Below are positions 30,476-47,809 of a DNA stretch of 64,000 nucleotides, in pieces (position 1 is the stretch's first letter; each line of letters begins with the position of its first letter). The notes under the pieces were generated by a model. That model did no database searches, was not told where the DNA came from, and saw only the letters and a list, made by a program, of their open reading frames with translations. Made by a program: the position numbers and the translations under genes. The stretch comes from Ehretia macrophylla (Eukaryota; Streptophyta; Magnoliopsida; Boraginales; Ehretiaceae). The stretch covers positions 52,121,594 through 52,185,593 of the forward strand of contig CM075780.1 in the NCBI GenBank assembly GCA_037974665.1, read 5' to 3'.

Positions 30476-30843
30476 TGTAACGAACTAACATTTTGAGGAA
30501 GAATAGAAAGACATAAAAGAAAGGAAAATTACAGAGAATTGAAGAAAGAAGAACAAAATAGAAATAAAGATAGTGTTTGATTGCTTTGCCTTCCTCTGAT
30601 ACAACCACCAAGATATATAATGTTTCACACCTCACATGCTAAATGCCTAATAGACTCTAACTAACAAGACACATAATAGCTGGGCTTGGTTGATCAACAA
30701 CTGTATTGGGCTCTGTAGTCTAACCGACTCCAATCTAATATTCTTCACTTGGACTGGACTGCTTGTTAACTTAACTTGGGCTCTGTGGTTTGGGTTGGCC
30801 ATTATCATTAGTAGAGTAGTTCATAGCTACTTAGATCATAACA
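30476..30843 (-). repeat. 3' LTR of the chimeric retrotransposon
   Basis: 368 bp; on the minus strand TGTTATGATC to GTTACA. Preceded by the polypurine tract at about 30845-30858. Confidence 0.92.
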
Positions 30844-30908
30844 TTACTTCTCCCTTTTGAGAGAACCTTGTCCTCAAGGTTCAAATCTGGGTAGGCTTCG
30901 AATACCTC
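30831..30908 (-). pseudogene. C-terminal tail of a gypsy polyprotein, probably the element's own
   Basis: About 25 residues ([15 protein letters not shown], then [10 protein letters not shown], stop) match the ending of plant gypsy chromovirus integrase/chromodomain proteins, where 'FPxFNLEDKV' precedes the stop. It overlaps the polypurine tract and the first bases of the LTR, exactly where a pol gene ends. It is therefore read as the remaining end of the ancestral polyprotein rather than a captured gene. Confidence 0.65.
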
Positions 30909-30980
30909 AGCACCTAAACTCCTTGAAAATCTTTTTCTTGCTACTAGTGTTCCATCAGGAAGCTTCTCCTTGTAAACAGG
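30909..30980 (-). pseudogene. Short receptor-like kinase fragment
   Basis: About 22 residues ([20 protein letters not shown]) match the glycine-loop to catalytic-lysine segment of plant receptor-like kinases (VYKGxLPDGTxVAVKRL). It is joined directly to the Ca2+-ATPase piece after GVFG. The segment is short, so the assignment rests on one motif. Confidence 0.5.
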
Positions 30981-31730
30981 CCCAAAAACACCTATTTCTA
31001 GACAAATGGCTTCTGCTGTGTTCTTGTTGTCACCAGTGATCACCATGACCCGAATGCCAGCTGCTTTGCAATCCTCAATGGCTTGGCGTACCTCCTTTCA
31101 AGGGGGATCTCTTAATCCAACCAAGCCAACGAAAATTAGTTTGCTCTCAATTGAAGGGTAATTAGTAGGAGTCAGTAAGAGTTCATGAGCTGGATGGCCT
31201 TCATCGCCATTATATGTAGCAAATTCTGAAAGATCCTCCTTGTATGCGAAACCCAGAACACGTAATGCACTTGCGGACATTTTGTCGAGGCTTCGCAAAA
31301 TTCTATCGCTTGAATTTTGATCAAGTTGCACAACAGAACCATCAAACAATTGAATGAAGGAGCTTTTTTCCAACACATTTTCTATTGCACCCTTCATAAA
31401 CAATGATTTTCTGCCTGAGCTGGAACTCACGAAAACACCCATAGAATTCCTGTCACGATCAAACTCAAGAGTAGCAATCCGCTGTTCCATTTTACTCCAT
31501 GTACGGGAGCAACATAGTGGATTGTTGTTACCCGAAAACAAACCAGAGTCTACTCCATTAGAAAGTCCCATTTTCTCAACCAAAACCTTTAATGTTGCCT
31601 CAGTTGGCATTCTACTGGCAACATAATGCAGCCCAGATTTTTCAACACCAGCATCATTGCACAAAGCAATAATCTTCGCAATCATCTGAAGGTTAATATC
31701 CATTCGACCTGCTGGCCAGACTCGAATCGA
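30981..31730 (-). pseudogene. ECA: ER-type Ca2+-ATPase (ECA) fragment
   Basis: About 250 residues of the nucleotide-binding domain of an ECA1/ECA4-type P-IIA pump: [27 protein letters not shown], the ATP-binding [20 protein letters not shown], the FKGA-like [27 protein letters not shown], and the hinge [20 protein letters not shown]. The DKTGT phosphorylation site and all membrane helices are missing. A CGA-to-TGA change makes a stop after RDPP (~31096). The coding sequence runs without interruption by introns. It cannot pump ions. Confidence 0.88.
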
Positions 31731-32024
31731 TTTATCATCCTCAAAGCAGGGTTGTAAGATTGACGTACTCACTAGGAAAATTTCATGATCCTTGCGTAGG
31801 TGATTGAAAGTCTTCTGAGCAGGTCTCAGTGAACCCTTTGATATCATATACACTTTACTTGGTTCTATCTGGATGTAGAACTGGTGAGCCATAGTATTAA
31901 AGCAAGTCACCTTTATTTCTCCACCATCAGAATCAAGGAGATCAAATAAGAACACTTTGCCATCACCTTGAGGATTATTGTAATGCCTGAGTTCCCTTTT
32001 TGTTATCACTCTGACTCTTACCAT
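31731..32024 (-). pseudogene. RPA1: Replication protein A large subunit (RPA1) fragment
   Basis: About 98 residues of an OB-fold single-stranded-DNA-binding domain: [81 protein letters not shown]. This is the first central OB fold (DBD-A) of the plant RPA1B/C/E type. It runs in one open frame into the ECA piece with no stop at the join, so a single fused frame of 308 codons (32024-31098) spans both genes. Confidence 0.85.
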
Positions 32025-32063
32025 GCAGGCTTTAGCAAGTAGATTGTTCTCTACCTCTTTGCT

Positions 32064-32578
32064 CTAGGTTGCAAAAAGTTCAGGCAACCTCTCCTCCACA
32101 GCTGCCAGAGCGATGTTGATAGAATTGGGAAGTGAGACGATCTTAAAGTGATGAGTTGGTCTTACACCCACCAACACGTGGGGTTCGCCTTTCACAACTC
32201 TTTCGATGTACTTCTTGCTACTAATTATTGCATCAGTAGGAAGTAGGTTCAACTTCAGCGGAGACATGAAGAGAGGAGTTTGAGTAAATTTTTCATAATC
32301 AAAATCACAGAATTGTTGTTTTGTCAGTGCCGTAGTTTCTCCACAAGCTTCACACTGAGATGACCTCCTCTAAGTTTGACAATACGAATCCTTGCTGACA
32401 GTGCATCAAAAAGAAGCATCCTTCCTGAGAGAGGTTCACCAACACAACTTGCAACCTTGATGGCCTCTAGAGCTTGGAGACATCCAATAACACCAGGAAC
32501 AACTCCAAGAACTCCACTATCCACATATCTTTCACAGGCTGTTGTAGCTGGTGGAGTTGGGAATAAACATCTATAGCA
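32064..32578 (-). pseudogene. CNX5: CNX5/MOCS3 C-terminal fragment (part 2, split by gypsy element)
   Basis: Continues the adenylyltransferase-sulfurtransferase of molybdopterin synthase and tRNA thiolation: CYRCLFPTPPATTACERYVD (metal-binding CxxC partly lost), SGVLGVVPGVIGCLQALEAI, GEPLSGRMLLFDALSARIRI, then after a stop PLKLNLLPTDAIISSKKYIE and the start of the rhodanese domain (VLVGVRPTHHFKIVSLPNSI). The frame is interrupted near 32330. The active-site Cys of the rhodanese domain lies beyond the captured part. No introns. Confidence 0.88.
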
Positions 32579-46091: not shown

Positions 46092-46367
46092 TGGGCCACC
46101 ATTATAATTGTAAACTATGAGATGTCCCTCTAGTCCCATTGTAGCACCAGATGTTAGAGGCTTTCCCAATAGAACATAGGAATCATTGATCATGTATCGA
46201 CTTGGAACATTGTCTATTGCATCTATAGCAACATCATATTGGCTCATGAGGTCCAACGCATTTGATGTGCGAAATGCTTCCTAGTGCTTCACAATCTCAA
46301 CAGTGGAATTAATCGTACGATAAGCAGCAACAACAGATTCCACTTTTGAACACCTAATATATGCTTC
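46092..46367 (-). pseudogene. CNX5: CNX5/MOCS3 fragment (part 1, adenylation domain)
   Basis: The minus strand reads [20 protein letters not shown], an in-frame TAG at ~46280, then SNALDLMSQYDVAIDAIDNV, PSRYMINDSYVLLGKPLTSG and GLEGHLIVYNYNGGP. This is the E1-like MoeB/ThiF fold of the adenylyl/sulfurtransferase. The usual DATDN reads DAIDN. The Gly-rich ATP-binding start of the domain is missing; the captured part begins beyond it. It is joined upstream to the PPR piece without a stop. Confidence 0.88.
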
Positions 46368-46622
46368 CGCACTGTACCCATCCACCATCACATTATAGCT
46401 CCCTAAATTCACAATCAACCTCTTCGGTGGATTGTGCTCCCTTAACATTCTCTCAAACAACTTCAATGTCTCATCAAACTTCCCATTCTTGTTCATAGCA
46501 TCCAAAACTGAGTTAAATGCGACATCACTCATCTTAACACTCAAATTCTCACCTACAGCTTCTTCATAACAATCCATTGTTTCATTCTCCATTCCCCTCA
46601 AGAAATACCCCTTCAAATACAC
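46368..46622 (-). pseudogene. PPR protein fragment (EMB1796/At3g49240-like)
   Basis: About 85 residues: [75 protein letters not shown]. These fit pentatricopeptide repeats of an organelle RNA-binding protein, and the block EHNPP+xLxVNLG is characteristic of the EMB1796 type. The piece upstream (46623-47009), with [11 protein letters not shown], may be from the same or another PPR gene; I could not assign it. Confidence 0.75.
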
Positions 46623-47009
46623 ACTCCATGGAATCCACCAAGGAGAATTTACTAACCTCTTCACCTCTACCATATCACCTTTCAAATACACCGAACTTCT
46701 CTTAGTCATTTCATCAAACACCTTCCTCGCAGACTCTATTTCAACAATATTTTTGAGTTCCGATTGTGAAATTTTACAAACGTTTAGCTCTTGCTCGAAT
46801 TGCGAGAACTCCTGCGATTGTAACTGCAAGCGATTCAAAACGTCATCGTAGTCGTGGTTTTGGGTTTCGAAATCGGGCTCGGCTTCGGAGTCTGCGAGCT
46901 TGAGATCTTCGCGACTGTGATTTGGTGTTGACAAACGATCCTCGTCGTCTACGCTAAAGAACAGCACTTCGGGATTTGCTGCATAAATTTGCATCACCTC
47001 ATTGTGGTT
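46623..47009 (-). pseudogene. Unassigned coding-like piece between HSP70 and PPR segments
   Basis: About 128 residues in the same open frame as its neighbours, acidic and polar ([20 protein letters not shown]), with a helical Q/E-rich part ([16 protein letters not shown]). Open frame and residue content suggest captured coding sequence. [13 protein letters not shown] could be PPR-derived. No family recognised for the acidic part. Confidence 0.5.
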
Positions 47010-47156
47010 GGTGTCGGCGAAAACAACTTGAGACGGCGGAATGCTATTTCCCTGATCAGTAGCTACTAGCGCAGCACTATCGTGTTGCTGAACACCCACA
47101 CACGAGTAAGCCGTCCCTAGATCGATTCTAATCGCCGAGCTGTCACCTTGAGCCAT
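47010..47156 (-). pseudogene. HSP70: HSP70 N-terminal fragment with start codon
   Basis: 49 residues from the ATG at 47156: [20 protein letters not shown] and [19 protein letters not shown], corresponding to the phosphate-1 loop IDLGTTYSCVGV and NDQGNRTTPSYVAFTD of cytosolic HSP70. This could act as the translation start for the chimeric frame, which stays open from 47369 to 46281 (362 codons), joining HSP70, the unassigned piece, PPR and CNX5. Confidence 0.85.
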
Positions 47157-47441
47157 CGGAAAAAAAATGAAAATACTGCTGATAAGACAACATTGCTTCG
47201 TAATAATAATAGTGATTGTGCACATGTTTGGATGGTGGAGCAGCTCACGGAGAATATGGCTGATAACTTTGAGGATATTGGTGATAATAGTGTTGTTGAT
47301 AATAGTGTTAATATTGTTGATATTGCTGAGAATGTTGTAGATATTATTGATATTGTTGAATTTGTACATAATATTACGTCACTATAGCATCCATGGCGTG
47401 TAGTCTGGTACCTTCGACCATGGAGTCAACGAGAGCACCAA

Positions 47442-47809
47442 TGTAACAAACTAAAATTTTGAGGAAGAATAGAAAGACATAAAAGAAAGGAAAATTACAG
47501 AGAATTGAAGAAAGAAGAACAAAATAGAAATAAATATAGTGTTTGCTTGCATAGCCTTGCTCTGATACAACCGTCAAGATATATAAATCTTCATACCTCA
47601 CATGCTAAATGCCTAACAGACTTTAACTAACAAGACACATAATAGCTGGGCTTGGTTGATCAACAACTGTATTGAGCTTCGTAATCTAACTGACTTCAAT
47701 CTGATATTCTTCACTTGGGCTGGACTGCTTGTTAACTTGACTTGAGCTCTGTGGTTTGGGTTGGTCATTATCATTAGTATAGTAGTCCATAGCTACTTGG
47801 ATCATAACA
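47442..47809 (-). repeat. 5' LTR of the chimeric retrotransposon
   Basis: 368 bp, same length as the 3' LTR. Between it and the HSP70 piece (47157-47441) is a leader with repeated 'aatattgt/tgttgat' words (47255-47370) that may be a remnant of the original gag. Confidence 0.92.

Follow-up and report, generated by a model that had tools for sequence, protein, structure and literature searches.

The DNA analyzed here, a 64,000-nucleotide stretch of the Ehretia macrophylla genome (CM075780.1:52,121,594-52,185,593; hereafter the window, whose numbering is used for all element positions), contains a long terminal repeat (LTR) retrotransposon that is very probably one copy of a large non-autonomous family, the interior of which has been replaced by pieces of spliced host messenger RNAs (mRNAs) captured one after another. 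The element is bounded by direct LTRs of 368 bp with TG...CA ends, and it is read on the minus strand, with the 5' LTR at 47442-47809 and the 3' LTR at 30476-30843. A TATTC target-site duplication lies on each side of the element, at 30471-30475 and 47810-47814. Directly after the 5' LTR is a sequence resembling a primer-binding site, TTGGTGCTCTCGTTGA (47426-47441), which is conserved in family copies; it is the sole exact match, with a second place differing by one mismatch at 33581-33596, and 0.15 places would be expected by chance when up to two mismatches are allowed. At the other end, a polypurine tract (30844-30861) adjoins the 3' LTR at 30843. Alignment of the LTRs and reading of the flanks thus bear out the termini that an earlier note on this DNA had described, and these ends are direct LTRs, not the terminal inverted repeats of a Pack-MULE.

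Organization of the element

In the sense direction the element consists of a gag-like start, pieces of HSP70, PPR, CNX5, RPA1 and ECA, a short receptor-kinase piece, and a pol-like tail, all on the minus strand, with a gene-carrying interior of approximately 3.1 kb; the gag, kinase and pol labels were assigned by eye. The gag-like remnant (47374-47421) is related to the MADGTTLDAMEE... start of other copies and is followed by a stop, whereas the tail (30846-30912) is conserved in the family and resembles the C-terminal end of a Ty3/gypsy pol. The two LTRs differ at 29 positions with no gaps, giving a Kimura two-parameter distance of 0.084, which would place the insertion at about 3.2 million years ago at the rate of 1.3e-8 that PMC5664825 uses for pepper and that may not fit this plant. 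As judged by eye, the insertion site is within the frame that encodes the leucine-rich repeats of a resistance-type gene (flanks 29800-30475 and 47815-48080), and that frame reads through the site once the flanks are joined.

The HSP70, PPR, ThiF/MoeB (CNX5), RPA1 and SERCA-type Ca-ATPase (ECA) pieces were confirmed by matches to Pfam, NCBIfam or PDB sequences, in agreement with the set of pieces and the single orientation given in the earlier note. The HSP70 piece (47004-47156; PF00012) is N-terminal, with PDB alignments to approximately residues 7-53. It is followed by a PPR piece (46365-46631; profile and PDB matches) that is related to At3g49240-type proteins and is common to sister copies. 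The CNX5/MOCS3 piece is divided by a nested insertion into a first part (46091-46364; PF00899) and a second part (32044-32580). Next are an RPA1 piece containing a DNA-binding OB fold (31724-32057; TIGR00617, PDB 1jmc), also common to sister copies, and the ECA piece (30977-31722; TIGR01116). The receptor-kinase piece (30913-30992) is only about 80 nt long and by eye covers the glycine-loop region; it is common to copies L010, L018 and L040, and was identified through its resemblance to sister copies; in one of these, a B-lectin domain is accompanied by what is, by eye, the kinase from that gene.

Donor genes

Two donors were located exon by exon, and the evidence for splicing covers these two pieces: CNX5 at C9:24669090-24671281, with introns of 138, 418, 535 and 701 bp, and ECA at C19:903334-905053, with introns of 396, 91, 367 and approximately 121 bp. 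All eight introns that fall within the alignable stretches, four of them in ECA, are missing from the element; GT-AG ends could be assigned to seven, and the eighth coincides with an alignment indel. Donor and element are identical over one 122-base CNX5 exon. For the first approximately 200 bases of the CNX5 piece no donor exon was found in the donor locus (L043), which covers only the last 72 bases of the first part. The absence of the eight introns indicates that capture of CNX5 and ECA went through spliced RNA. A contiguous CNX5-like place is also present on C19.

A family of mosaics across the genome

We searched the genome from which the window comes (1.58 Gb in 20 contigs) for related elements. 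The window LTR gave at least 61 matches with 40 of 316 candidates scored, and a 27-base motif from the 3' end was found at 377 places with up to three mismatches, compared with none for the reversed motif. The non-autonomous, gene-collecting family that the earlier note had proposed is supported, but it is large and not small. Terminal sequences are alike on both sides among the 13 short copies compared and LTR ends are intact in most, though not all, copies, whereas the interiors differ among the 11 copies with listed open reading frames (ORFs), every one of which carries a host-gene mosaic. Comparing cargo in this way, as had been suggested, shows that other copies hold different sets of host genes: Pfam matches in their sense ORFs include tubulin, thioredoxin/PDI, TOM1, proteasome, O-methyltransferase, GH28, pectin acetylesterase, TIR, NB-ARC, HSP70, B-lectin, PPR and TPR, some of them under the curated cut-off, including the sole match for copy C5. 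Three further copies (C9b, C9c and C7a) were compared for shared blocks and nested elements only, and at four places (L029, L030, L031 and L033) nothing in the stretch examined resembles the family beyond one LTR match.

Six new places were picked from the 44 exact 3'-motif places listed, and 2.5 kb was read at each. All six contain host-gene pieces. Five have Pfam matches, namely to MTHFR, EMC1 (under cut-off), PDI, RabGAP-TBC, PPR, PHS1, M17 peptidase, E1-E2 ATPase, raffinose synthase, ANTH, hydrolase and NB-ARC, and the sixth (L040) carries the RPA1 and kinase pieces of the window copy, recognized by alignment. Over the copies read, more than 20 gene families are represented, with up to six partial pieces joined in one copy. 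Ten 3'-motif places that share an identical one-mismatch variant are clustered within half a megabase at C1:5.02-5.51 Mb; amplification of a larger repeat that contains one family copy may have produced the cluster.

Growth of the mosaic

Comparison with sister copies suggests an order in which the pieces were acquired. CNX5 and ECA are both missing from the copy C9a (L010), which does contain the PPR, RPA1 and kinase pieces; in L040 those RPA1 and kinase pieces occur again, with no ECA between them. The simplest reading is that an older PPR-RPA1-kinase mosaic gained CNX5 at its PPR/RPA1 border and ECA at its RPA1/kinase border. At the return join from CNX5 to RPA1, GAGAACAA is common to the window copy and L040, and at the return join from ECA to kinase an 11-base sequence, TTTTGGGCCTG, is common to the window copy, L018 and L040, with one difference in L010. 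In the sister copy L045 (approximately 1043-1301) the sequence exits CNX5 after about 28 bases into what is, by eye, aldehyde-dehydrogenase-like sequence. Outside the window copy, at least four places also contain the ECA-tail module.

Such a pattern of joins is consistent with reverse transcriptase having switched from element RNA to an mRNA and then returned, combined with recombination among copies. In the mechanism that we propose, element RNA would be packaged together with host mRNAs by the proteins of a partner element, reverse transcriptase would switch from one to the other and return at short matches, and the resulting copies would recombine with each other. The intermediate steps would make this template-switching route testable.

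A different origin would be capture at the DNA level or separate insertions at this locus. Pack-MULEs and gene-capturing Helitrons form multi-gene mosaics in many copies, and the many short gene pieces per copy seen here are Pack-MULE-like. However, capture by Pack-MULEs and Helitrons takes place on DNA and can retain introns, whereas the family described here is intron-free for both donors found, which contradicts such an origin for CNX5 and ECA, and its copy in the window has LTR termini with a target-site duplication. Moreover, domains were found only in the sense direction among the ORFs tested: 24 of the 30 sense ORFs scanned, eight in each of three sets of ten, match a Pfam family (E ≤ 0.01), as opposed to none of ten antisense ORFs, taken from the longer ones among 73 of at least 60 codons, although antisense ORFs are shorter than sense ORFs and the control is therefore not length-matched. 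The earlier note had weighed arrival of the pieces one by one at this locus; because copies at other loci have the same ECA-tail join, CNX5 and ECA appear to have been acquired stepwise but inside the element, before it landed here. We regard capture at the DNA level or by separate insertions as highly improbable.

Search for an autonomous partner

No gag-pol belonging to the family (reverse transcriptase, RNase H, integrase) was seen by eye in the ORFs of the copies read, and an ordinary gag-pol between family LTRs was likewise absent from them. Two weak Ty3/gypsy remnants, both under the curated cut-off, are an SH3_Tf2-1 match corresponding to the integrase C-terminus (L025:4206-4952) and an RVP_2 match corresponding to aspartyl protease (L046:339-1793), hinting at a possible Ty3/gypsy ancestor. 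A protein search with the gag-like start of the family gave no match. In a search with the leader, 40 of 160 candidates were scored, and for 11 of these the coordinates allowed a match to one of the listed 3' ends; ten of the paired copies span 2.0-2.8 kb and are therefore too short to contain gag-pol. The eleventh is a 10-kb copy on C3 that was rejected as a partner because it contains cargo together with an inserted element that is copia-like by eye (7.2 of 11.2 kb read). Also rejected were the elements nested in C9b and C7a, which have gag-pol by eye but differ in their LTRs and ends and so belong to other families.

Several observations weigh against the proposed explanation. Although 17 LTR pairs could be delimited and eight have an exact 5-bp duplication, the other nine do not at the boundaries used, C19a having a duplication with one mismatch. 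Blocks are held in common between copies, and three pairs (C19a/b, C14a/b and C9b/c) are segmental duplicates as judged by their flanks, so that copies are not all independent of one another. At the exit join from RPA1 to ECA there is little shared sequence of the kind found at the return joins, and no autonomous partner was found among the copies and candidates examined.

Reading frames across joins

The earlier note had described two fused frames of 362 and 308 codons in the window copy. Measured from stop to stop these are 365 and 321 codons and they do cross gene borders, and all four joins with both sides recognized are in frame. One frame is open over most of the length after the gag-like start, but it is now interrupted by the insertion of the gypsy element, by one frameshift within the CNX5 piece and by single stops at three positions. 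Long frames are intact in other copies: 790 codons across PPR, SMXL and PFP in L016, 720 codons across PDI, RabGAP-TBC, PPR and PHS1 in L039, and an open stretch of 833 codons across MTHFR and EMC1 in the 2.5-kb sample of L036.

We counted stops in the best sense frame of 17 copies (18 other than the window copy were computed, and the duplicate C19b was then excluded), and compared them with a null in which pieces cut at 200, 300 or 400 nt were put in random frames. The copies have 327 stops in total, against null means of 577, 551 and 530, respectively, and 12, 9 and 8 of the 17 fall in the lowest 5% of the null. L036 (no stop in 2383 nt), C17b (1), C15 (3), C11 (5) and L039 (7) are far below the null whichever of the three cut lengths is used. 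The effect is not uniform: L037, L038, L040 and C19a show none relative to the null, that of C10a is weak, and C17c, C6, C10b and L041 pass the 5% level at some cut lengths only. In addition, only 5 of 12 copies have the gag-like start in frame with the tail, indicating that later indels or out-of-frame joins exist. Joined pieces therefore often share a frame, but not in every copy.

It is conceivable that this continuity has no cause of its own, given that coding pieces are long open frames to begin with and older shared blocks are counted repeatedly. The 17 copies are indeed not independent, nine of them lie outside the lowest 5% at the 400-nt cut, and the null also introduces breaks within single genes. 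In opposition to this, the five copies named above are far below the null at every cut length, several of them join different donor genes, and the four joins of the window copy are in frame. On balance we consider an absence of any specific cause unlikely.

Protein constraint

An alternative cause of the open frames would be that the chimeric proteins serve the element or the plant. Besides the long uninterrupted frames, the raw ratio of nonsynonymous to synonymous substitution (dN/dS) is suggestive in this regard, ranging from 0.39 to 0.66 over ten blocks shared between other copies, with a pooled value of 0.54. However, neutral evolution simulated with the mutation spectrum of the family LTRs gives a median of 0.60, and 64 of 300 simulations are as low as 0.54. 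Differences are spread nearly evenly over the three codon positions (139, 122 and 154), and cargo varies between copies. Constraint on the encoded protein was thus not detected in the ten shared blocks, and protein function was dropped as the cause of the open frames; we judge it improbable. In the window copy, the frames that the earlier note had thought able to give chimeric proteins are now broken. Gaps in multiples of three are more frequent in cargo blocks (11 of 38) than in LTRs (1 of 165), which is no more than a hint because the same LTR gaps recur from pair to pair and the pairs cannot be treated as independent.

A filter on readable RNA would explain in-frame joins without protein constraint. 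Under such a filter, only RNAs with a long continuous frame would survive to be recopied, for example by escaping nonsense-mediated decay. We are less sure of this step than of the others; the case for it is statistical. Carried further, the family would be a continuing exon-shuffling engine that goes on joining pieces of host mRNAs into giant chimeric frames and in which the sole selection is for readability of the RNA and not for the product, with hundreds of unconstrained, translatable fusion proteins as a by-product, a view that we hold as slightly short of probable. If the filter is real, RNA quality control shapes the evolution of transposable elements and supplies many ready-made fusion frames.

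Relationship to known systems

Capture of genes by LTR elements is already known. Examples named in a 2026 review (PMC13317346) are maize Bs1, which carries three genes, a TRIM element containing a piece of a P450 gene, and Rider; the review also names surveys. As that text describes Bs1, the family is like it in that host-gene pieces within an LTR element form a hybrid frame, and here too several host-gene pieces lie between LTRs (with splicing shown for CNX5 and ECA) and a hybrid frame crosses them in the family, although it is broken in the window copy. In contrast to the three donors and one element of Bs1 in the same text, more than 20 gene families are involved here and cargo is shuffled among copies. 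The family likewise resembles LTR retroduplication, in which spliced mRNA is found inside LTR elements, as reported for pepper NLRs (PMC5664825) and in the rice and sorghum surveys (PMC3726574). The pepper NLRs are carried by mostly non-autonomous LTR elements that mostly lack gag or pol, as in the family here. Captured genes are treated there singly, with two or three in one element mentioned, whereas up to six partial pieces are joined here and reshuffled between copies.

TRIM, LARD and TR-GAG elements are also LTR elements without pol that are moved in trans. Their interior is conserved non-coding sequence or gag, whereas the interior here is host-gene cargo. In the open-licence literature, as judged by titles and the start of abstracts, we found no description of a family of multi-gene, in-frame mosaics; the scale and the in-frame mosaicism look new. 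The family would make gene capture by LTR elements a repeated, family-wide process and not a series of rare accidents. It also carries a warning for annotation: a long open frame in an element of this kind is not necessarily a gene, even when it contains genuine domains.

Nested element and other repeats in the window

Most of the span of the element is accounted for by a 13.5-kb nested element, of Ty3/gypsy type by eye, which inserted later into the CNX5 piece on the plus strand (32584-46091) and was absent from the earlier note. It has its own LTRs, approximately 93-95% identical, a TGGGC target-site duplication (32579-32583 and 46092-46096), and a pol that is interrupted by stops. By eye, it contains further insertions, one near 36391-38790 and another, which has GC-rich ends, near 40046-40990. 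Elsewhere in the window, direct repeats of approximately 1.06 kb at 21810-22869 and 27556-28613 are 94% identical and have LTR-element-like spacing, a second direct-repeat pair at 53037-53532 and 63041-63515 is 89% identical with its members about 10 kb apart, and an imperfect palindrome at 48232-48639 has arms that are approximately 76% identical.

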